A DNA stretch of 64,000 nt from an uncultured delta proteobacterium (GTDB lineage Bacteria > Desulfobacterota > Desulfobulbia > Desulfobulbales > Desulfurivibrionaceae). Below, in pieces: positions 6,318 to 48,900 of this stretch. Below the pieces are notes generated by a model. It was not told where the DNA came from and ran no database searches. It saw nothing but the letters and a program-made list of their open reading frames with translations. How positions within the stretch are numbered: position 1 is the stretch's first letter; each line of letters begins with the position of its first letter. The stretch is from the NCBI GenBank assembly GCA_903869265.1, contig CAIPYE010000015.1:310001-374000 (forward strand), written 5' to 3'. Made by a program: the position numbers and the translations under genes.

Positions 6318-6379
6318 GCCCAACCATTCATTCCAGCGGACAGCGCTTTTGCGGGGTCCGCTGGAATGAATGGTTGGGC
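6318..6379 (-). repeat. attC-like perfect palindrome
   Basis: Two 24-base arms (6318-6341 and 6356-6379) are exact reverse complements around a 14-base loop. The arm ends read GCCCAAC and GTTGGGC, fitting the integron R'' (RYYYAAC) and R' (GTTRRRY) core sites, and the inner TTCCAGCGGAC resembles many chromosomal attC sites. The palindrome is 3' of the 6394-6786 gene on the minus strand, where a cassette attC would be. Real attC sites usually carry unpaired extrahelical bases; this one has none, so it may be inactive, or it may be an ordinary strong terminator that happens to fit. Confidence 0.5.
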
Positions 6380-6393
6380 ATAAGTTATTTTCG

Positions 6394-6786
6394 TTAACTT
6401 TTTAGTTCAGGAACTGGCGGCCAAGTGGGGCGATTTGCCTTTACCCAATTTTTTAACTTTCTCCTAGCTGAGTCACCCCCAGTTTCGATCTTGAGTAGAG
6501 AGCAAATCGCCTTCCATGTGCTCAGCCCCTCTTTGCTCTTTAAATCGGGAACGCTCGCCGCCCATTTTTGAGGACTTGGTGATTGAACTTTCTTTGGCTC
6601 TTTTTTTGCCAAAGCCATAGATTCCGCTAAAAGCTGTTCTAACTCCTCGTCAACTTTCTTCGGCGTAATGTGCTGCTGAAGAAGACGCTTCAGTGCATCA
6701 TTAAACGAAAGATTCTCAAACGGCTTGGGTTTCGCAAGCCTCTCAACCAAGGCAGCTAACTCTTCGTCAACAGTGAATTTTGGCAT
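6394..6786 (-). CDS. Small protein with ribbon-helix-helix/SeqA-like N-terminus
   Basis: A 130-residue protein. The N-terminus (MPKFTVDEEL, then FNDALKRLLQQH near residues 28-39) resembles the strand-helix-helix DNA-binding region found in SeqA and VapB-like proteins. The middle is lysine- and proline-rich (KKEPKKVQSPSPQ), and the C-terminus is a compact helical stretch ending RRKLKNWVKANRPTWPPVP. The ATG has an AGGAG ribosome site. Directly upstream are three copies of an ATCACTAGT motif, two forming a large inverted repeat, so autoregulation is likely. It could be an orphan antitoxin or a small nucleoid protein; no partner toxin is adjacent. Confidence 0.6.
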   Translation of the reverse strand: MPKFTVDEELAALVERLAKPKPFENLSFNDALKRLLQQHITPKKVDEELEQLLAESMALAKKEPKKVQSPSPQKWAASVPDLKSKEGLSTWKAICSLLKIETGGDSARRKLKNWVKANRPTWPPVPELKS

Positions 6787-7080: not shown

Positions 7081-7369
7081 TTCCCGTCGCCCTCCCGGAC
7101 GTCATCCGGCGGCCTTATTTGTTGCCCTTCTTTCCGGCCAATCTTTTTAAATCTCTTCTTGTGGTCCGTCGACAGATCCGACGACCAGACATCCATTTGC
7201 CGTCTTCGGGGATATCCCGTCACGGAAGATTGAGTTTGGGCCAACCCGCCGGCCTTGAAACACTATAATTGACGTGCAGCTTTGTTCGGCTCACGTGGTC
7301 CCCAGAAAAGCAAGGCCCGGCGGGAAGATCGTTGGAGCAAAAGGGCTCTTTTGTTTTCTGTCTACCGTG
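7081..7369 (-). ncRNA. Candidate bridge RNA region of the IS
   Basis: About 290 noncoding bases follow the transposase inside the element. IS1111-type elements are known to encode their guide (bridge) RNA in this position. Visible local hairpins include CCGGA-cgtca-TCCGG at 7095-7109 and a bulged stem GGTCCGTCG with CGACGACC at 7163-7186. Boundaries, loops and guide segments were not determined; the call is inference from position and structure. Confidence 0.35.
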
Positions 7370-38424: not shown

Positions 38425-40152
38425 ATGATCAGCCAAGACATCGACCGCCTTTTTAACGAACATCTCGTGCCAACCAACCATGCGGCCAGCGACTATTTCG
38501 GACTCATCAAAAAACTGGTAGACCTGAAAAACAACGCCCTTCCGGACTCCCAGGACTTCCGCCAGGCAAACGAGGCCATTGCCAAAGCATATGCACTGGT
38601 GGAAGATGAAATACGCACCAACACCAATCCCCCGCGCAAAGAGGTATCCTTCGGCACCTCCGGCTGGAGAGGGATCATCGGCAAGGATTTCTCCCTGCAC
38701 TCCGTAACCCTGGTTGCCCAGGCCATCGTTAATATGTACCGCAACCTGGACCAGGACGACTCCCTGGCTCCGGCCCTGGGGGTACGCAGTTTCAAAGAGG
38801 CGCAGCAACGGGGCGCCGTGGTCGGCTTTGACAACCGGTTCGGCGGCAGCCTCCTGGCTCAGCGGGTTATCGAGGTCTTGACCGGCAACGGCATTGGTGT
38901 TCATTATGCCCATGAGGCCACCACCGGCACCCTTTCCGCTGCGGTTCTTATTTTGCAGGCAGCGTTTTCGGTGAATCTCACCCCCAGCCACAACCCCCTG
39001 GAATATGCCGGTTTCAAATTCAATGCGGCGGATGCCGGGCCGGCGGCCTCGGAGATCACCCGCCGGATCACGGAAAATGCACGGCAGCTCATCGCCGGAG
39101 GAATTACCCAGCCACTGACTCCGAATGCCGCCCTGGTGAAGCAATGCGACGCCCTGGCCTGCTGGCAGGAACTGGTCGCCAAGGGCGCATCCCTGCACGG
39201 CCTGAACTACAAAGAAATTCTTGTCTCCTTCCATGGTGCCACGGATTGCGTGGTTGTTGTTGACTGCGTCCATGGAGCCAGCCGGGTGCACATGCGCTCC
39301 CTGTTCGGCAACCAATCATCAGAGAGGCTCATCTTCTTACGGGACCAGGCAGACCCCACCTTCGGCGGGGTTGCGCCCGAGCCCTCCTCGCAGAACATGC
39401 AGCAGGTTCTCGCCACCCTGCGCCAGAGACCGGAGCCGTTCAAGCTCGGGGTTATCATCGACCCTGACGCCGACCGCATCCGTTTCACCGACGGCACCAT
39501 CGAGATCGACATGAACCTTTTCGGGGCCATGGCCTATCATTATCTGCATGAACAAAAGGGCAAGCACGGCCTGGTGGCTAAGACCGTGGCGACCAGCAAC
39601 TTTGCCAACGCCATTGCCAAAGGATTGCACGAGGAAATCTTTGAACCACGGGTAGGATTCAAAGAGTTCAAGCCGGTGATCGGCAAAGCCCTGGTCTGTT
39701 TCGAGGAATCAGACGGCATCACCGTCATTGGCCACACCCCGGAAAAAGACGCATATATCGGCCTGATCCTCGCTCTGGACATGATGCTCAGCCTGAAAAA
39801 GAATCTTGGCGACTACCTTGGCGAGATTCAGGCAGAGTACGGCCAGTACTATCCAGCCAAGGGGGGGGTCGAGGTAAGCCAGCAGGGAAAAGTGCTGCTG
39901 GACACCCTGGCCGGACTGGAAAAATACGCGGTCGGGACCACGATTGATATTGGCGGACAAGCAAAGAAGATTACCGAGGTAATCACCATTGACGGCAGAA
40001 AGATGATTCTGGAAGACAACAGTTGGCTGATGATCAGACCGTCCGGCACGGAGCCTAAGGTTCGCTTTTACGTCGAGGCGAGAAGCGAATCGGGCAAGGA
40101 CGGTCTTTTTGCCGCAGCCAAAGCTATGCTCTCCGAAATCGGGCTTCTCTGA
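38425..40152 (+). CDS. Alpha-D-phosphohexomutase (phosphoglucomutase/phosphomannomutase)
   Basis: Moves phosphate between C1 and C6 of a hexose phosphate. The 575-residue protein has all four family elements: catalytic Ser188 in LTPSHNP, the metal loop DPDADRIRF, the sugar-binding EESDGI segment and the phosphate-binding loop RPSGTEPKVRFYVEA. The N-terminus (residues 1-70) is longer than the minimal family. Specificity for glucose or mannose cannot be told. It is divergent from ppsA, and both serve carbohydrate synthesis; a diguanylate cyclase gene follows 11 bases later. Confidence 0.9.
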   Translation: MISQDIDRLFNEHLVPTNHAASDYFGLIKKLVDLKNNALPDSQDFRQANEAIAKAYALVEDEIRTNTNPPRKEVSFGTSGWRGIIGKDFSLHSVTLVAQAIVNMYRNLDQDDSLAPALGVRSFKEAQQRGAVVGFDNRFGGSLLAQRVIEVLTGNGIGVHYAHEATTGTLSAAVLILQAAFSVNLTPSHNPLEYAGFKFNAADAGPAASEITRRITENARQLIAGGITQPLTPNAALVKQCDALACWQELVAKGASLHGLNYKEILVSFHGATDCVVVVDCVHGASRVHMRSLFGNQSSERLIFLRDQADPTFGGVAPEPSSQNMQQVLATLRQRPEPFKLGVIIDPDADRIRFTDGTIEIDMNLFGAMAYHYLHEQKGKHGLVAKTVATSNFANAIAKGLHEEIFEPRVGFKEFKPVIGKALVCFEESDGITVIGHTPEKDAYIGLILALDMMLSLKKNLGDYLGEIQAEYGQYYPAKGGVEVSQQGKVLLDTLAGLEKYAVGTTIDIGGQAKKITEVITIDGRKMILEDNSWLMIRPSGTEPKVRFYVEARSESGKDGLFAAAKAMLSEIGLL

Positions 40153-40163
40153 AGGCGCGTTGC

Positions 40164-41426
40164 ATGACAAAAAATGAGCAAAACCGCCAGCTCCTTCTGG
40201 TGGAAGACAGTAAATCCCTGGGCCTGATGGTGAAAAACAAGATTGAATCGAGCCTTGCTCTCTCCGTATCCCTGGCAAAATCCTTTGCCGAAGCAAAACA
40301 CCTCATCGCTAACCAGCAAAATCATTTTTTTCTAGCTGTCCTCGACCTCACCCTGCCAGACGCCTCGGGAAACGAGGTAGTGGACTATGTCCTGACCCAC
40401 AATATTCCGCCCATCATCTTTGCGGGCAAATTCAGCCAAAAACTACGGGACACCCTCTGGCAAAAGATGATTATCGACTATGTGCTCAAGGAAAACCCCC
40501 AGAGTATCGACTATCTCCTGGGACTTGTTCGGCGCATCGCCAACAACAGCGGGGTCAAGGCACTGGTCGTAGACGACTCGCGCTCGTCGCGCCTTGAGCT
40601 GAGCAACCTGCTGACCATCCACCGCTTCTGCGTGTATGAAGCGGCAAACGGCATGGACGCCCTACCCATCCTTGAACAGCACCCGGACATCAAGCTCCTG
40701 ATCACCGACAACGACATGCCAAAAATGACCGGGCTACAATTGACCAAAGAGATCCGCCGACGTCACGCCAAGGAAGAACTGGCCATCATCGGACTTTCCG
40801 GCAGCGACGACAAGGCCATCTCCACGCAGTTCATCAAAAATGGGGCCAACGATTTTTTGAGCAAACCTTTTTCGCACGAGGAATTTTACTGCCGGGTCAA
40901 CCAGAACATGGATCTGCTCGAGTATATCCAACAGATCAAAGAAAGCTCGAACCGGGATTACCTCACCGGCCTTTACAACCGCCGATACTTCTTTGAGATG
41001 GGCAAAAAGCTCCTGGCCAGCGCCAACCGAGGGCATCTTGGGGTGGCCATGGCCCTGCTGGATATCGATTTTTTCAAAAAGGTCAATGACACATACGGCC
41101 ATGACGCAGGAGATCAGGTGCTTAAGTCTCTCGGCGCCATGCTGCAACGCCGCTTCCGCGAAACGGATATCGTCTGCCGTTACGGCGGTGAGGAAATCTG
41201 CATCCTGGTTGTCAATATGGCAGGAGAAAGTATCTTTGATGTCTTTGACAGCGTCCGGGAAAATATCGCCCGAACCCTAATTGATTTGGGTGGAGAGAAA
41301 ATCCAGATCACGGCCAGCATCGGCGTGTGCCTGGAAGCAAAGGAATCTATGGAAGACATGATCACCATTGCCGACAAAATGCTCTATATGGCCAAAGCAT
41401 GCGGGCGCAATCAGGTCCGGTTTTAG
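40164..41426 (+). CDS. Two-receiver diguanylate cyclase (PleD-like architecture)
   Basis: A 420-residue response regulator. The first receiver has Asp in AVLDLTLPDASG, the second in LITDNDMPKMTG with KP in FLSKPFSHEEF. A GGDEF-type domain follows (DYLTGLYNRRYFFEMGKK; LDIDFFKKVNDTYGHDAGD; active site GGEEI). Synthesises cyclic di-GMP when the receivers are phosphorylated (family knowledge). The GGEEI signature is an accepted active variant. It starts 11 bases after the phosphohexomutase and is probably co-transcribed. Confidence 0.92.
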   Translation: MTKNEQNRQLLLVEDSKSLGLMVKNKIESSLALSVSLAKSFAEAKHLIANQQNHFFLAVLDLTLPDASGNEVVDYVLTHNIPPIIFAGKFSQKLRDTLWQKMIIDYVLKENPQSIDYLLGLVRRIANNSGVKALVVDDSRSSRLELSNLLTIHRFCVYEAANGMDALPILEQHPDIKLLITDNDMPKMTGLQLTKEIRRRHAKEELAIIGLSGSDDKAISTQFIKNGANDFLSKPFSHEEFYCRVNQNMDLLEYIQQIKESSNRDYLTGLYNRRYFFEMGKKLLASANRGHLGVAMALLDIDFFKKVNDTYGHDAGDQVLKSLGAMLQRRFRETDIVCRYGGEEICILVVNMAGESIFDVFDSVRENIARTLIDLGGEKIQITASIGVCLEAKESMEDMITIADKMLYMAKACGRNQVRF

Positions 41427-41479
41427 CCCCAGCCTCCGGTCGGTTTCGCCTGAAGTCCCGAGACCCGTTCAAAAAACAA

Positions 41480-41504
41480 AAGGGGTCTTAAAAATGAACC
41501 CCTT
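41480..41504. terminator. Weak hairpin between convergent genes
   Basis: AAGGGGT (41480-41486) pairs with ACCCCTT (41498-41504) around an A/T-rich loop, between the cyclase and antitoxin stops. Confidence 0.4.
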
Positions 41505-41518
41505 CACTGCCCAGCAAA

Positions 41519-41797
41519 TCAAGCGGCATCCTGAAGAGTCACTTCCACATGCTTGCCCAGGCGGGCAAGCATATTCACCAGCATGTCGATGGTGAAGCGG
41601 TTAATTTTTCCGCGCACCAGATCGCTGATCCTGGGCTGGGTAACGCCCATCTTTTTGGCCGCCTGTTTTTGGGTCATGCCCTGCTTTTTTATACAGCTCT
41701 CAATATCCATCATGAGACGGCTTTTGATTTTCATGCTTTCCCGTTCGGCGGGATCGGTTTCCAACGCATCCCATACACTCTTGAATGTCTCTGTCAT
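41519..41797 (-). CDS. HigA-type antitoxin (XRE helix-turn-helix)
   Basis: A 92-residue antitoxin. The C-terminal two thirds is an XRE helix-turn-helix (MTQKQAAKKMGVTQPRISDLV), followed by INRFTIDMLVNMLARLGKHVEVTL, typical of antitoxins paired with Gp49-type HigB toxins. The ATG at 41797 has GGGAGG upstream and overlaps the toxin stop by four bases (ATGA), so it is translated with the toxin and second in order. It should bind and neutralise the toxin and repress the operon (family knowledge). Confidence 0.88.
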   Translation of the reverse strand: MTETFKSVWDALETDPAERESMKIKSRLMMDIESCIKKQGMTQKQAAKKMGVTQPRISDLVRGKINRFTIDMLVNMLARLGKHVEVTLQDAA

Positions 41798-42108
41798 GGC
41801 GTCCTCCCGATTTCTTTGTAGCGTTTTTTGGCCAATTCTATGTCCGCCTTGGCGGTTCGTTGTGTCTTTTTCTGAAAGGCGTGCAGAACATGGACTGCAT
41901 CGGCAAACTTGGCGACATAGAGTATCCGATACTGGCCGCTTTCTTCTCTGATTCTGATCTCGCAAACACCAGGGCCAATGTTCAGCATGGGCTTCAAGTC
42001 TGACGGCTCAAGCCCCTGCTGCACCTTACTAAGCTGATATCCAACCTCCCCACGTGCGTCCGGAGGGAAAGCGCAAAGATCCTTTTTCGATGTGCCGTGA
42101 AAACTTAT
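41794..42108 (-). CDS. HigB-type (Gp49-like) toxin, atypical start codon
   Basis: RelE-superfamily mRNA interferase. The C-terminal half is clear (GPGVCEIRIREESGQYRIL; FADAVHVLHAFQKKTQRT). The first ordinary start codon in frame, GTG at 42024, would give 76 residues and drop the family's N-terminus. Reading upstream in the same frame restores it: SFHGTSKKDLCAFPPDARG and GEVGYQLSKVQQGLEP match the expected N-terminal strands and helix. The codon where ATG is expected, at 42108, reads ATA, three bases after a GAGGGAA ribosome site. From there the product is 104 residues, normal for the family. It may use AUA, or be inactivated by ATG-to-ATA mutation. Confidence 0.7.
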   Translation of the reverse strand: MSFHGTSKKDLCAFPPDARGEVGYQLSKVQQGLEPSDLKPMLNIGPGVCEIRIREESGQYRILYVAKFADAVHVLHAFQKKTQRTAKADIELAKKRYKEIGRTP

Positions 42109-42299
42109 TTCCCTCAGTTTTATATATAATATTTTATATACAGAAAGCCAAGAAAAAACTGGGAGTAGTCCAAACTATCCCAGTTTCTTTTCCAGATCGT
42201 CGGCCCGGAGGTGATGGCGACAAACCGCAAATGCACCTAAAAAATCCAGTTGGCGGAATATCTGGTTAGTTTTCGCTCTGACACCCAATATTACCTCCT

Positions 42300-42617
42300 T
42301 TACTTTTTGCAATGACGCAGACATGAATAAAGCACAGCATTGCAAGCCGCTGTGTCCTGCCACGAAAATGCTGTCATGAGACAGTCACGATAACTGTCTT
42401 GGCAATCCTGAGCACAAGTATCGTCTGGGGGCTGTGGAAGTGGAGGCGGCGGAGGTTGTTGAGGCGGAGGTGGCGGCTCTTCCTTGCAACATCTATCTGC
42501 CCCACAACAATATGACCCGGCGGGACAATACTTCCCACTTCCTGGAGGGCATTCGTCAGCTTGTGCGGAGGTCGCCAACACAGCAAACATTATAATAATT
42601 AATGCTAGCGTCTTCAT
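42300..42617 (-). CDS. Secreted cysteine-rich protein with polyproline linker
   Basis: A 105-residue exported protein. Signal peptide residues 1-20 (cleavage near TSAQA). A first cysteine module has six cysteines in ECPPGSGKYCPAGSYCC and CGADRCC; its CC/CC spacing resembles granulin- or knottin-like folds. A proline-rich hinge follows (PPPPPQQPPPPPLPQPP). A second module carries CAQDCQDSYRDC and CNAVLYSCLRHC, helical with CX3C-type spacing. The ATG has a GGGAGAG ribosome site. Function unknown; it may be an envelope structural or binding protein, or a small effector. Confidence 0.65.
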   Translation of the reverse strand: MKTLALIIIMFAVLATSAQADECPPGSGKYCPAGSYCCGADRCCKEEPPPPPQQPPPPPLPQPPDDTCAQDCQDSYRDCLMTAFSWQDTAACNAVLYSCLRHCKK

Positions 42618-42692
42618 GGAGTCTCTCCCTTAAAATACATAAACACTGAGGATGAAAAAAACAGGGAGATGTCCCTAGTTTCTCCTAGTTTC

Positions 42693-42707
42693 TCAAGACC
42701 TGACCCC
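42693..42707 (-). repeat. Second copy of the 15-base motif
   Basis: Plus-strand TCAAGACCTGACCCC, identical to 5726-5740. A diverged relative, AAGACCTAACCCC, follows at 42715-42727. Confidence 0.6.
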
Positions 42708-42717
42708 AGCCCGTAAG

Positions 42718-42775
42718 ACCTAACCCCACACCGGATAAACACGTATGCGGCATCGCCTGGAGCTAATGGTTAGAT
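42718..42775 (-). repeat. Degenerate attC candidate at the end of cassette B
   Basis: On the minus strand ATCTAAC (R''-like, 42769-42775) and GTTAGGT (R'-like, 42718-42724) are 58 bases apart end to end, the classic attC size, and the stop codon of the preceding gene lies inside. The inner part does not pair well, so the site is weak evidence on its own. Confidence 0.3.
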
Positions 42776-43302
42776 TTCTCTTCTTTTGACGAGTACGTGA
42801 ATTCTTCTTCATAGAACGACTTGTATTTGATGACTAGGTCTGCACGTTTAAAGGCATGCTCGATGGCCTCTTTGGTAAGCGGCGCAGGACTCTTGAACTG
42901 GATTGCCAAGATCGTGCATTTCTCCTTCGCGGCCATGGAGTATCCCTTGGCCATGTAGGCTTGCTGGGACTGATACCCCACATTCGGAAATAGGATCTTC
43001 AACCCTTTCTCAATGGGTTCTGTTCCTTCGCCCGCAATTAACCTTTCGTCAACCGTGACCGTGAAGCTCTCGATTATGGCAGGACCAAGACCGTTATTCA
43101 TAACCTCTACGGCGTAGATGCCCTGGTCTGAGTTTCGGTGAGACCATGAAGTAATGTGCGGCCTGAAAGAAAGCTTGTTATGCCTCTGCATCTGCTTCCC
43201 TTGCCACACCGTATAAGTGAGGGCGCACAACGCGATTACAGCACTTGATATTCCAGCAACTGTTTGCCAATCCAATGCTATGTCCCCCGAGAAATCTAAC
43301 AT
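42763..43302 (-). CDS. Membrane-anchored protein of unknown function, cassette B gene
   Basis: A 179-residue protein with one N-terminal membrane helix (about 12-33, TVAGISSAVIALCALTYTVW) and a soluble beta-rich domain (YAVEVMNNGLGPAIIESFTV, later TILAIQFKSPAPL). The layout is common in small hypothetical genes of mobile cassettes. The ATG at 43302 is inside the attC R' core site, so translation starts at the cassette boundary; a TTG near 43272 with GGGGG upstream is an alternative. The stop lies in a second attC-like site. No catalytic residues recognised. Confidence 0.65.
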   Translation of the reverse strand: MLDFSGDIALDWQTVAGISSAVIALCALTYTVWQGKQMQRHNKLSFRPHITSWSHRNSDQGIYAVEVMNNGLGPAIIESFTVTVDERLIAGEGTEPIEKGLKILFPNVGYQSQQAYMAKGYSMAAKEKCTILAIQFKSPAPLTKEAIEHAFKRADLVIKYKSFYEEEFTYSSKEEKSNH

Positions 43303-43360
43303 TCAAATTGAGGGACGCGCCAAAAGCGGTGCGCCCCTCAATTTGAATGTAGTGTTAGGT
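43294..43360 (-). repeat. attC site between cassette genes A and B
   Basis: A 67-base site. Ends fit the integron core sites on the minus strand: ACCTAAC (R'') and GTTAGAT (R'). A 14-base stem (43301-43314 with 43335-43348) plus GCGC pairing surrounds a 10-base loop. Two extra bases on one arm (43315-43316) and a five-base unpaired spacer on the other side (43349-43353) give the asymmetry that lets integrases choose a strand. The upstream gene stops inside the site and the next starts at its edge. Confidence 0.65.
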
Positions 43361-43926
43361 AATCCTGCTCGCAGGAACCGACTTTCCGGCAGCTTTGATT
43401 TTGCCATGACATCGAAGAGTGCTTTGCTGACTAAGGCATCGTCACTGCCGCCTACGATGAAACATGCGTGAGACACATAAGCAAAACAATGAACACCACC
43501 AGAGCGAAGGGTGCTGAGTTTTTTCTCTAGGGATGCATATTCATTGCCCCGCTGGAGGCTTTGATCAAAAACCAAGGTCAGTGAATTGGGGCGTGATTTG
43601 ATAAGGTATTCAAGCTCGCTTGCGAATAGATATTCTGGTGCCTTCACGCTCTTTGTGGTTTTCATTTTGAGACCCGTGTCGGGGTCAAGAAAAAGATGCC
43701 CACACTCAGAAGCATACGCAAGATATGAGGAACGGTCCGTGGTGGTGGTCAATACTTCCGATGAAATTACGTGAGCACCAAGAAAACGTTTGAATGCGGC
43801 AAGTTCGTCGATTGTCGCGGACTCGGTGAGCATGGGATGTACCGACCAATCGCCAAGGTGCCTGAGCCAGTTTATGAGCGACAACTTTACGATGTCGTAA
43901 GAGTCGCCGAAGTAGCGCATGTGCAT
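43303..43926 (-). CDS. Protein of unknown function, cassette A gene
   Basis: A 207-residue soluble protein. Notable segments are MRYFGDSYDIVKLSLINWL, ECGHLFLDPDTGLK and SLTLVFDQSLQRGNEY; the DPDTG and the F-D-Q segment look like active-site loops of an enzyme, but no family was recognised with confidence. The last 19 or so codons are written by the attC site itself, so the native C-terminus may be cassette-derived. It starts 15 bases after a GTTAGGC core site. No integrase is nearby. Confidence 0.6.
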   Translation of the reverse strand: MHMRYFGDSYDIVKLSLINWLRHLGDWSVHPMLTESATIDELAAFKRFLGAHVISSEVLTTTTDRSSYLAYASECGHLFLDPDTGLKMKTTKSVKAPEYLFASELEYLIKSRPNSLTLVFDQSLQRGNEYASLEKKLSTLRSGGVHCFAYVSHACFIVGGSDDALVSKALFDVMAKSKLPESRFLRAGLPNTTFKLRGAPLLARPSI

Positions 43927-43939
43927 ATGTTTTCTCGCA

Positions 43940-43946
43940 GCCTAAC
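43940..43946 (-). other. Upstream cassette boundary (core-site-like GTTAGGC)
   Basis: On the minus strand GTTAGGC fits G^TTRRRY and lies 14 bases before the cassette A start codon. An imperfect hairpin (ATTAAAA with TTTTAAT) precedes it, but no R'' partner was found, so it may be the remains of an older attC or attI. Confidence 0.35.
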
Positions 43947-44130
43947 ATTAAAATTGACCGGATTTCCGTTTTTAATACTTCTTCGCCATTTCGATCTCGG
44001 ATTTCCGGATGCTAAAGGGGAAAAAGGCCCTAAAAATACTCTTTATGTCCATTCTGAGCATCTTATACGGAATACAGTGAATTCTCCAAAACTATTATCC
44101 GCTTCCACAATCTCAGCCGGATAACCCCAT

Positions 44131-45975
44131 TCACTCCGTCAATTTTTCTCCAAGCCCAGAGGCCCGATCCACCCTTCTGCCCACCGCCGCCTCGATTTCC
44201 TGAGGTCTACCAACCAGGGCCACCTGACGCCTGGCCCGACTGATCCCGGTATAAAGGAGTTCCCTGCTCAACAATGCCGAATCCTCTCCGGGTAGGACCA
44301 GAGCAACCCGGTCAAATTCAGAACCCTGGCTCTTGTGGATGGTCATGGCAAAGGCTGTTTCGTGCGCAGGCAGCTGGCGCAGGGAATAGGAACGAACCCA
44401 CTCCCTGCCTTCCGAAAAGAAAAAGGCCTTGAACCCCTCGCCGTCTTCTGCTGGCCAAAGGATGCCGGTCTCGCCGTTAAAAAGCCGCAACGGGTAGGAG
44501 TTGGCCTGAATCAGCACCGGTCTCCCCTTGTACCACGGGGTGTTGGGCTCAATCAGCCGGTGCAGGGACAAAACCTTTTCCGCATATCGGTTCAGAGAGG
44601 AAACACCCATCGGCCCGGTCCGGTGGGCGCAGAGCAGGCGGAACCGCTCAAACAGCTCCAGGGCCGCAAACGGGCTGGCAGCCTCCAGAAAGGGCCGATA
44701 TCCGGCCAGGATCATTTCCGCCAGGGGGTGACTCGGATCACTCTGCACAAGCGGAGGCAATAAGCTGACCTCTGCCGAGCCCTGCTGGCACAGGGAAACC
44801 GCCTCCTCCGCCTTCCCTGCATGTATTGCGCTCGCCAGCGCACCGATCCCCTCGTGCGGGGAAAACCGGAAGCTTTCCATAAGCCTAACCACGCACCGGG
44901 CCAGGGGATTTTTCCCCGCCCCAACGCCGTCCATGACCGCCGCGCAGATATCCCCCAGGATGGAGCCTGCCTCCACCGAGGAAAGCTGGTCCTTGTCTCC
45001 AAGCAGCACCAGCCGCGCCGTGGGCTCCACCGCCGCAAAGAGCTTGGCCATGAGGGCCACGTCAATCATGGACGCCTCATCGACCACCACCACCTCCCAG
45101 GGCAATGGGTTCTCACGGTTATAGCGGAAGGTGGTCGGGGTTTCCGGCCGGTAGCCAAGGGCCCGATGGATGGTGGACGCCTTGGCGGGCATGGCCGCAA
45201 CCAGCTCCGGCACCATTGTCTCTCCCTTTTTCTTCTGCAGGGATTCGGTGAGCCGGGCCGCTGCCTTGCCCGTGGGGGCAAGGAGCAGGATGCGCGGCAA
45301 CGGCTCTCCGGACGCCTGGGCATAGAGCAGGACCAAGGCCAGATATTTGGTGACAAGGGTGGTTTTGCCGGTGCCGGGTCCGCCGGTGATCAAACCCAGA
45401 CGCTGCCGAAAAATCCCGGCGCAAGCCTCGCGTTGCGGACCATTTTGCGCCGTGCCAGAGAAGAGTTGAGCAAGACAGGAGGCAAGCAAATCCTCCTGCA
45501 CAGCCACCGGGTTCGCTGCCCTGGCACGAATCTCCCGGACCAACTCCTCCTCATAGAGCCAGTAGCGTTGCAGATACAGCCGATGTTCTTCGAACACCAA
45601 CGGGGCAAGATTGCCATCCCGGCTCACCAGAGGGCTTTGCTGAAGTTCCGCGAGCAAATCTGCAAGCGAAGGCTCGATTGACTCCCCCCCCCTTAACGGG
45701 AGGAGGGTTGGGGGTGGATGAAGTTGCGACCTGCCGGGTTCATCGCTGTTTCCCCCTCTCCCTGACCCTCCCCCGCCGGGGGGGAGGGAACTTTCCACCA
45801 GCCGTTTGAGATCGAGGCAGACATGACCATTGGCCACCGCTTTCCGGGCAAGGGCGGCGAGGACAAGGACCTGGTGGGTCGCAGTGGGAGCAAACCGCTG
45901 GAGGGTTCTGACAAAATAGCGGTCGAACTGGTCCAGCATCCCGCTGGCAATGAGCTGCTCAATCTCCCGGATCAT
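44131..45975 (-). CDS. recD: RecBCD helicase subunit RecD
   Basis: 5'-to-3' helicase of RecBCD in double-strand break repair, 614 residues. Walker A is ITGGPGTGKTT, Walker B VVVDEASMIDVALM, with STIHRALGYRP and TIHKSQGSEFDRVALVLP as later helicase motifs. Residues of about 63-100 are not RecD-like: a proline/glycine-rich stretch encoded by a palindromic REP-like repeat inserted in frame. The ATG at 45975 overlaps recB by 17 bases. The insert lies in the N-terminal domain, away from the ATPase core, so activity is probably kept. Confidence 0.93.
   Translation of the reverse strand: MIREIEQLIASGMLDQFDRYFVRTLQRFAPTATHQVLVLAALARKAVANGHVCLDLKRLVESSLPPGGGGSGRGGNSDEPGRSQLHPPPTLLPLRGGESIEPSLADLLAELQQSPLVSRDGNLAPLVFEEHRLYLQRYWLYEEELVREIRARAANPVAVQEDLLASCLAQLFSGTAQNGPQREACAGIFRQRLGLITGGPGTGKTTLVTKYLALVLLYAQASGEPLPRILLLAPTGKAAARLTESLQKKKGETMVPELVAAMPAKASTIHRALGYRPETPTTFRYNRENPLPWEVVVVDEASMIDVALMAKLFAAVEPTARLVLLGDKDQLSSVEAGSILGDICAAVMDGVGAGKNPLARCVVRLMESFRFSPHEGIGALASAIHAGKAEEAVSLCQQGSAEVSLLPPLVQSDPSHPLAEMILAGYRPFLEAASPFAALELFERFRLLCAHRTGPMGVSSLNRYAEKVLSLHRLIEPNTPWYKGRPVLIQANSYPLRLFNGETGILWPAEDGEGFKAFFFSEGREWVRSYSLRQLPAHETAFAMTIHKSQGSEFDRVALVLPGEDSALLSRELLYTGISRARRQVALVGRPQEIEAAVGRRVDRASGLGEKLTE
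45681..45792. repeat. REP-like palindromic repeat inserted within recD
   Basis: About 110 bases with G-rich and C-rich arms: plus-strand CCCCCCCCTTAACGGGAGGA at the left and CCCTCCCCCGCCGGGGGGGA at the right are roughly complementary. This type of CCCTCCCC palindrome is widespread in proteobacterial genomes. It is translated here as a Pro/Gly-rich loop without breaking the frame. Confidence 0.6.
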
Positions 45976-48900
45976 GGCCGCCCTCCCTTGCCAGGCTCTC
46001 AAATATCGCGGAGAGCTGTTCGATGCGGGCCAGGGGTGGCAGGTCGGCAAACACCCCGAATTCAGAGCCGAAATCCGGGTGCATCCCCTTGAAAAACAGG
46101 TACAAGACCCCGCCGAAATCCCGATCATACGCATAGCCGGGCAACCGGCAGGTCAGATAGCGATGCAGGGCCACGGTGTAGATGTGGTATTGGAGAAAAT
46201 AATGATGGTGGGCCATGGCCGCAGGCAGTTTGTTCCGGGCGTAATCATCCCGGCTGAGCCCGAGATGGTTGCTCTTGTAATCCATCAGATACCATTTGCC
46301 CTCAAAAATGCAGACCAGATCGATAAACCCCTTGAGAAAGCCGCGCAGCGGGATAAAGCGTAAAGCACGCAGGCTCTCAACATACCCGGCAGGAATCCCC
46401 TGGGGATGGTCGATAAACGGGCAGGCCAGAAGCTCGGCGGAGAGACTGGCATCCTCGCCCAAGCCTGCGCCCACCGGAAAAGTGAATGGCATCTCATTGA
46501 GCCGCTGCGCGTCGGTGAGATCACCCAGACAAAATGGGTCCGTTGCGCAGAGAGGGGTTTTGAGCACCTCAGCAAAGGCCCGGCAGACCGGGGCAAGCCA
46601 CTGCTGCTCCGGATAGCCGTAAAAACGCAGCTGCTCCCGCACCAGCTCCTGCAATAGAGCGGGGTTCTCTTGCGGAAACGAGGCTAATTCAAAAATGGTG
46701 TGGAAAAAATTGCCCGCCACCGGGCCCTTGGGAAACTGGGCCAGGGGAACCAGAGCAGCAGAGGGAATCTCCGTCGCCATCTCCGGGACCACTGACTCCT
46801 CCGACACCCTTTCGCCCGGAGCTTCCGGCTCCCGTTCCCCTGGGTCATGGCTGCTCTGCGCTGTGAGATGGGAAAAGCTTCCGATCCGCCAGACCTGGGC
46901 CAGCTTGCGCACCGGGGTGCGGCAGATCAACTCCGCCGCCTCAGTCGGCCGGGCCGCTTCGCCCATCGAAGCCGTGCCCGGCAGAAGCTGCCGCACCTGC
47001 CAACCTTGGCTTGCCTTGGCCCGAGCCCGCAGCCGGTCCAACAGATCCTGTCCGGTGTAGCGTTTGAGCTGCTGTTGCAACGCTTCCGGGCTGGAGGCTG
47101 CTTCGGGCTCACCCTGATCGCCATGGAGAAGCCAAGCCAGCGCGCTGGTATCGTACCCGGAGACCGGGGCCCAGAGGATATGGCAGCTATGCCGGGCTCG
47201 GGTCATCGCGACATAGGCAAGGCGCAGCTCTTCGGCAAAGCGCTCACCTGTCGCAAGAGCCCGGGCTGCATCATCGGGAAACAGGACGATCCTCCCCTGC
47301 CAGTCCGCCGCCGGATCATGGAGGGAGACAAAGGGCTGCCTGGATGTGCCACCGCCCCCCAGGCAGAGATAGGGACAATACACAATCGGATACTCAAGCC
47401 CCTTGCTCCGGTGGATGGTGACCAGCTGCACACCATCCTCGTCGCTTTCCAAGCGCAGCTCCGCCTCTTCTCCGCTCTCGCCTGCGGCAATGGTTTGGCT
47501 GAGCCAGTCCACCAGCATCTCCGGGCTGAAATGGTTCCGGCTCTCCGTCTCCTGAAGCAGTTCAGCAAGATGACGCAGATTGGTCAGTCTCCGCTCTCCA
47601 TCCTCCAACAACAGCAGCCGCCCGGTAACGGAATGCTCCTGCCAGGCAGCCAGCAGCATCCGCATGACCCCGTTTTTCTGCCAGACCTCCTGCCAGGATG
47701 AAACTCGCCCCATGAGTGCGTACAGCTCAGATTCCGCCTGATTGAGGTGGTCAAGGTCATTGCCGGTAAAGCCGAGCATCGTGGTGGCCAGCCCCTTGCG
47801 GAGCAGCTGTTCGTTGCCCGGTTCGGCCACCGCCGCGAGAAGACGCAGGCATTCCTGCGCCTCGACACTCCCCCAGACACTGGCCTTACTCTGGAGCACC
47901 CCGTTGATCCCCCTGCCGCGCAAGGCTGCCTGGATCTCCGCTGCCTGGATATTGGTGCGGACCAGCACGGCAATGTCCCCGGCCCGAACGGAGCGCTCCC
48001 CAATCAACGTATCCCCAGCCAGCAGCCCGGCGATATCTCCGGCAACCAGCTCCGGGATCAGGGGTTCAAGCTGTTTCTTGACCAGCCGCCCTCCCCTGGT
48101 TGGGCACAGACCCTCGGGCAGGGTGAAAAACTGGAGAGGGGAAGAGCCAAGGCTCGGGGAATGCCAGAGATCTTCCGCCCCAGGCCGCGCATCGACCTGG
48201 GCGTAGCTGATCCGGGCATCGACAAAGGGGTGTGCCAGTCCGCCGAAAAGAGCGTTCAGCGCCGCGACCATTTTCCGGTCGGCCCGCCAGTTGGTGGTCA
48301 TCGTCTGTTTTTCAGATTCCGCCTGACCGGCAGCCTCAAGGTAGGCATAGATATCCGCGCCACGGAAACCATAGATCGCCTGCTTGGGATCGCCGATCAG
48401 AAAAAGCGCCTCCTTGCCCCCTTTCCCATAGATGGTCCGAAAGATGCGGTACTGAACCGGGTCGGTGTCCTGAAATTCATCGATGAGAGCCACCGGGAAG
48501 CGGGTGCGGATCGCCTGTCCAAGCTGTGCGCCCTGCGTCCCCCGCAATGCCCGGTCCAATCCGGTGAGGAGTTCATCAAAAGATTGCTGCTGGACACCCA
48601 GCAGACGCTTGGGCAGTTCCGCCCGGATATAGCGCGCCGCCCCGGCGAAGAACCGCGCCTGACTGCTGGCCCCCATAGCCTCGGCCTGGGCAACCAGTCT
48701 ACCCCATACCTCGAAGAAAGGATTGTTGTGCACCACCCCTTTTTTCAGAGCCGTTGGAGTAAAGACCTTGCCATCCGGCTGAAAGATATTTTCCCCGCCG
48801 AGCAGTTCCGTATGTCGCGGCGGGGAAAAGGCAACAGGCTCATCGTTGGCGAAAAAATCAGCAAGCCGATCCAGCAGACCATTGGCCAGCAGGGTTTTGA

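Follow-up and report, generated by a model that had tools for sequence, protein, structure and literature searches.

Cassette arrays without an integrase are commonly regarded as debris. In the sections of PMC9024848 considered here, a cluster of attC sites lacking an integrase (CALIN) is defined as having no integron integrase and at least two attC sites found with a covariance model. The locus described in the present study, which lies beside recD in the genome of an uncultured delta proteobacterium, resembles these CALINs in that a cassette with an attC is found in a genome without a detected integrase, whereas it differs in having one well-formed attC and an attI-like platform with a putative intI start, and in being one of at least five sites of one or two cassettes. 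Integrase-less arrays at positions common to genomes have also been described in Xanthomonas, one of the positions being near recD in X. cissicola (PMC12444791); those arrays are not at ilvD, where the canonical intI locus is found, and the sections of that source on which we draw do not mention a conserved attI platform at each place.

Cassettes are also known outside complete integrons, with a G^TT junction, after insertion at attG or secondary sites (PMC12901181; PMC10127599), whereas the acceptor in the present locus is a conserved attI-like sequence homologous to intI-adjacent DNA. In class 1 and class 2 integrons, pieces of attI occur away from intI and tied to cassettes, as delta-attI cassettes (PMC12901181); in those cassettes, the attI piece takes the place of the terminal attC, whereas here it is upstream, at the insertion point. 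We recognised no description of scattered or solitary attI platforms in the open-licence literature.

We consider it likely that the recD locus is an integrase-less integron remnant, with real cassettes that were exchanged by an integron integrase (IntI) at G^TT in an array that is now probably frozen. Should attI platforms prove to be scattered and reused, the capture of cassettes would not be restricted to a single locus beside intI, and tools that demand intI or at least two attC sites would overlook many single-cassette sites. The origin of isolated attC genes would then become testable through positions that are common to species, as at recD and at the site on contig C10 described below.

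Organization of the recD locus

The window, i.e., the whole stretch of 64,000 nucleotides that was analysed, covers positions 310,001-374,000 of the forward strand of contig CAIPYE010000015.1 (GCA_903869265.1), from a genome of 17 contigs that is 99.2% complete. On the minus strand, recD (ORF end at 44131) is followed by approximately 170 bp of non-coding DNA, GTTAGGC, gene A, an attC, gene B, and a last core pair. A preceding sequence-only reading had described the core GTTAGGC, gene A, the attC, and gene B in this order, and all four are present at the coordinates below; it had not included the attI-like platform 5' of gene A, the further sites in the same genome, or a palindrome at 6318-6379. 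The features are as follows.

44066..44112, plus strand: probable decayed 5' end of intI, approximately 15 codons, reading away from the cassettes; faint in this copy
43940..44112, minus strand: attI-like platform between recD and gene A, approximately 170 bp, left edge approximate; has copies elsewhere and in relatives that diverge after GTT
43946-43940, minus strand: putative attI core GTTAGGC, end of the platform
43303..43926, minus strand: gene A, first cassette gene, 207 aa, predicted Rossmann/methyltransferase-like fold (ORF, L157 relative, AlphaFold2 model)
43294..43360, minus strand: attC of cassette A, with R'' ACCTAAC (43360-43354), a near-perfect palindromic stem, and R' GTTAGAT (43300-43294) (fold and score)
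42763..43302, minus strand: gene B, second cassette gene, at most 179 aa (ORF, phrog_35671, plasmid relatives)
42718..42775, minus strand: terminal core pair without a stem, ATCTAAC (42775-42769) and GTTAGGT (42724-42718); decayed attC or chance
42662..42677, minus strand: terminator-like hairpin and T run, 3' of the array (consensus scan)

The evidence for the terminator-like hairpin is weak because the scan of the region found 2 such elements against 1.7 expected by chance. No consensus promoter was found in 42600-44200 by a consensus scan, which thus lends no support to a cassette promoter Pc. In the integrons treated in the relevant part of PMC12901181, Pc is located within or close to intI. 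Expression of the cassettes from the platform upstream is plausible.

The attC hairpin and the terminal core pair

The 43294-43360 site had been regarded as a well-folded attC, and the present results agree: as single-stranded DNA, it folded with z scores of -9.65 and -8.39 on the two strands, and none of 200 shuffles was as good on either strand. A scanner built for this analysis, which requires matched R boxes and an L stem (R''/L''/L'/R'), gave it a score of 35.5, which places it among the top two attC-like sites of the window; in 40 shuffles of the window that kept dinucleotide composition, the maximum was 30.0 and the mean maximum 24.5. In the compared loci, 608,517 bases in all, the scanner returned 21 matches at 28 or higher on both strands, whereas a base-shuffled copy of these bases, scanned on one strand, returned none. 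An Rfam search of 40000-47000 gave chance matches only, none of which was attC-like.

Regarding the asymmetric unpaired bases that had been attributed to this attC, we found just a one-sided 5-nt spacer beside R'' and no clear extrahelical base; that description is not borne out. The stem arms are near-perfect complements. When the interior is aligned with that of an attC in the G010:C238 array, 2 of 30 positions differ if the plus strand is used and 9 of 30 if the minus strand is used, and the interior thus appears, from this alignment, to be inverted relative to the genes. Near-complementary arms with an apparently inverted interior have the look of a hairpin that was corrected or flipped.

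The terminal pair at 42775-42718 is of a different nature. Its cores, the second R''/R' pair that had been reported, agree at 6 of 7 positions; the pair has no internal stem (fold z 0.22 and 0.36) and gave no scanner match at 42718-42775. It is at best a decayed attC, and neither folding nor the scanner found a structured attC of its own after gene B. The array hence has one strong attC, by our own scanner, and one unstructured core pair against the two-attC threshold of a CALIN. Of the earlier description as two tandem CALIN-like cassettes, cassette A and the lack of an integrase stand, while the second attC is unstructured and the threshold is not clearly reached; strict CALIN status is unproven because the terminal pair has no stem. 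The locus is also not a complete integron, since no intI lies beside the attI-like core, where there is just the probable decayed intI start.

Cassette A and cassette B

Cassette A is bounded by a GTTRRRY-type core and by an attC with R'', a stem, and R'. A three-sequence profile of gene A retrieved 23 relatives from a collection of genome contigs, the nearest of which (L157) is in a Lake Pavin MAG named 'Deltaproteobacteria bacterium', with 82% protein identity in the best segment (80% in alignment A4). At the DNA level, 499 of 598 nt (83%) were identical between cassette A and L157, from 43949 (AATGTTAGGC) to 43352 (ACCTAACAC) in the window, and the alignment stopped at the GTTAGGC core and at the R'' box, with none beyond on either side; the attC interior is not shared, and the recD attC differs from that of the L157 copy. 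The boundaries of gene A are established by this independent copy elsewhere, which ends at the same points, and with the same boundaries between other flanks, gene A is, on this comparison, a real cassette. By eye, another short reading frame (MKNKFYGDNRDLVK) may be broken up by the copy in L157 (3940-3985), which could then be a secondary-site insertion.

The same comparison bears on the view that two ordinary accessory genes are separated here by a chance palindrome or a transcription terminator. Genes are often followed by hairpins, and the terminal pair is without a stem, as that view would have it; however, the matching core boxes, a score above those of all 40 shuffles, and homology to L157 that is exact to the cassette render it scarcely credible.

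Neither gene A nor gene B was found in the other 145 of the 146 relatives searched, and among 395 genomes drawn from the phylum, relatives of gene A occurred in 2 besides the source. Gene A had no match among plasmids, viral contigs, and phages, no Pfam match, and no PDB sequence match. An AlphaFold2 model from a 14-sequence alignment (pLDDT 91.6) has a Rossmann-type fold with a low-confidence C-terminal tail, which is the part encoded by the attC. The best structural match was RlmJ (Z 9.1, rmsd 3.5 A, 154 residues aligned), other methyltransferases and spermidine synthases were within Z 1 of it, and the Foldseek E value was 7e-4; the product is predicted to have a Rossmann/methyltransferase-like fold. 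The family alignment contains a conserved DPDTG motif, possibly the counterpart of DPPY in such enzymes.

Gene B may start, as judged by eye, at a TTG approximately 10 codons into the reading frame, with GGGGG upstream, and its product probably has an N-terminal membrane segment. The products of both genes had been described as lacking a recognised family. This is correct for Pfam, whereas gene B matches phrog_35671 (E 3.8e-12) and proteins in 21 plasmid records, with 25-39% identity; no relatives were found in viral contigs. A strict attC scan of 5 of the 21 plasmid loci gave matches in 2, one of which (L126) falls inside a gene. The other is an AT-rich hairpin of 138 nt with matched cores, approximately 420 bp before the Catenovulum relative of gene B (L130). 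The predicted structure of the gene B product had a pLDDT of 34.

Search for an integron integrase

The absence of intI, which had been noted for the window, was found to extend to the genome. Seven tyrosine-recombinase family matches were obtained in the source genome, none of which was above the TIGR02249 integron-integrase cut-off, and the two closest candidates were XerD, which exceeds the XerD cut-off, and a XerC-like protein that falls slightly below the one for XerC. IntI was above the cut-off in 9 of the 17 genomes of the genus and in 81 of the 146 relatives. Judged by contig and position, no IntI match is located beside recD in the genomes of the genus; the nearest, in G010, is on the opposite side of recD at a distance of approximately 15 kb.

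The attI-like platform and its copies

A search with the recD flank of the source genome yielded two further copies in this genome, and a 102-position profile followed by a 39-position profile (R2) raised the number to at least five sites, all of them 29 kb or more from the ends of their contigs: C10:118590; C14:29415; C15:254135; C15:353939 (the recD locus); and C4:35571. A further R2 match on C17 of the source genome (E 0.045) was dropped as noise. In the 146 genomes, R2, which was built from 16 of the 22 matches, gave at least 22 matches at E<=7.8e-4, at least five of which are in the source genome; among the matches listed, all are in the source genus or in one other genus of the family. 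The best of those listed from 119 order-level genomes had an E value of 9.2e-4.

Two of the listed matches are directly upstream of intI, namely, G010:C269 (80% over a 35-bp core) and G023:C49, and the IntIs at these two loci are approximately 71% identical over 329 residues. In G013:C45, intI is on the same contig as the platform, 15 kb away. The occurrence of the same sequence directly upstream of intI in two relatives marks the platform as attI-like and as a candidate for recombination with attC by the cognate IntI.

The left part of the platform appears to be derived from intI itself. In G008, 181 bp match the beginning of the G010:C269 intI at 67% identity (E 1.7e-10), with approximately 14 codons kept, and the translated stubs MRNTDKSCEFL and MWNKDKSIGYL may be compared with MWKKDKYIEFL of the intI start. 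The decayed start is clear in G008, G016:C281, and G010:C310, and faint in the recD copy of the source genome, which has ATA for ATG. A stretch containing TTGGAG/TATAAG was first read as a promoter and is better read as decayed intI start.

The copies are not uniform. The cores at the other four sites in the source genome are GTTATGT, GTTAGCC, GTTATGC, and GTTTCAT, not all of which have the consensus form; some copies in relatives have no GTT, and G016:C144 matches the platform with the core end missing. Common motifs were noted on both sides of two platforms at different places in the source genome (L150:6443, 7243-7281; L151:7486, 6643-6605), with TCTCGACGTTTTGT before and TGCCTGATCGRTTCACCC/CAGGATTTRCTCAAATCC after.

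Change of gene at GTT

Evidence for a change of gene comes from the same chromosomal position in two species, at which the upstream sequence is conserved and, in these alignments, a different gene is present from GTT onward. In 60-nt blocks, C10 of the source genome and G005:C28 were 95/87/85/92% identical before GTT and 41/42% after it, and G008 and G016:C281 were 92/95/84/90% identical before and 48/50% after; the background, from 300 random 60-mer pairs, had a mean identity of 44.5% and a maximum of 55%. The recD locus compared with G006:C47 was less clean, at 74/69/56/65% before and 49/55% after.

At recD, the comparison covered 17 flanks, drawn from the remaining 16 genomes in the genus; most relatives are fragmented assemblies. 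The sequence-only reading had proposed comparing relatives at the predicted G^TT points, and in both G006:C47 and G013 the platform DNA recurs between recD and the core, followed by an unrelated gene. The G013 copy was at background identity in the block comparison because a deletion shifts the register; by local alignment, it was 85% identical over 137-139 bp. The G003 flank matched the left 90-92 bp of the platform only and has no core.

Downstream of all five platforms in the source genome there is an ORF, 138-226 codons long, and then a hairpin that was read as an attC. The scanner calls an attC at recD only; the other four hairpins were read by eye and have imperfect cores, and their z scores of -2.1 to -5.1 are flattering, since each was computed against base shuffles and is the best value among many windows. 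The four other cassette genes have no Pfam family, as with genes A and B. An acceptable hairpin was seen at no more than 9 of the 16 sites inspected (the five in the source genome, G006_C47recD, G021_C37, G005_C77, and G011_C2), and the sites without one include G005_C28 (z 0.1) and G016_C281 (z -0.6).

Origin of the platform sites

In the mechanism that we propose for the remnant, the platform would consist of a decayed intI start, an intI-attI spacer, and an attI core ending in GTTAGGC, downstream of which would be cassette A with its attC and then cassette B with a final site that has decayed. An IntI of the G010:C269/G023:C49 type may have inserted the cassettes at G^TT, either in an ancestor or in trans; with no IntI in the genome now, the arrays would probably be stable until one arrives. 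Copies of the platform are present at four or more other places in the genome, each with a cassette-like gene of its own.

The cassettes may instead have been placed by IntI at ordinary chromosomal GTT sequences, in the manner of attG. Cassettes are known to enter genomes at attG or other secondary sites (PMC12901181; PMC10127599); however, approximately 35-170 bp upstream of the junction is conserved across places and beside intI, which the choice of ordinary targets fails to explain, and we regard this origin as improbable.

Two other accounts concern the manner in which the platform came to be at several places. According to one of them, small integrase-free units, composed of the intI start, attI, one or two cassettes, and attC, multiply in the genome and are loaded in trans by an IntI at another locus; a genome could then carry several cassette landing sites distant from intI. 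The C10 and recD copies of the source genome, G010:C181, and G005:C28 have a common left edge approximately 166 bp before GTT and a right edge at G^TT, the C10 and C14 copies have common flanking motifs on both sides, and in G011:C2 a remnant of the recD tail seems, by eye, to be present, all of which are in keeping with such dispersal. On the other hand, we identified neither a mobile element nor a target duplication nor an empty site, the left edges of the C4, C14, and C15:254k copies are different, and the common edge may instead reflect a kept promoter. We consider dispersal to be unlikely, though less so than insertion at ordinary GTT sequences.

According to the other account, each site began as a complete integron and decayed in place, with its own intI deleted and the start, attI, and first cassette left; the intI start would have been kept since it holds the cassette promoter, and movement of the platform would be unnecessary. 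Relatives carry up to four IntI matches per genome, which is consistent with this account. The recD flanks of L062, L064, and L065 have a different attI-like sequence and the start of a G015-like intI, with 27-45 in-frame codons aligned by tblastn at 53-74% identity (E 3e-7 to 8e-5), whereas that of G011 is of a third kind, with 84% identity over 214 bp to DNA adjoining the intI of G011 itself on another contig; pieces of the two G011 arrays also match at 92-93% at attC-like places. The 3' side of recD has thus received three kinds of integron pieces.

Counted from the likely ATG, approximately 14 intI codons are kept in L064 and L065, up to 32 in L062 at lower identity, and approximately 11-14 in G011, so that all three kinds of recD flank keep approximately 11-15 codons, L062 reaching 32. 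Selection for a promoter there would explain the similarly short intI starts under decay in place, and these starts, being about equally short, raise the probability of decay in place and lower that of dispersal. Points against decay in place are the nearly identical left edge of copies at different places, as described above, and the little intI that is kept at the sites examined with tblastn, none of which retained most of an intI except G023:C49. We place decay in place somewhat short of an even chance.

Other features of the window

A second near-perfect attC-like palindrome, GCCCAAC..GTTGGGC at 6318-6379, also had a scanner score of 35.5. It is located after a minus-strand gene (6394-6786, 130 aa), and the platform profiles gave no match near it; we take it to be a candidate lone attC-like site.

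Between the array and a GGDEF gene, neighbouring Gp49/RelE-like and HTH_37 genes (41519-42024) are toxin-antitoxin-like, and this part is without a match in the homologous stretch of G005 (L014). After the array, 42300-42617 encodes a small Cys/Pro-rich protein that is probably secreted, and a cysteine-rich protein was also seen by eye after the recD array in G004 (L064).
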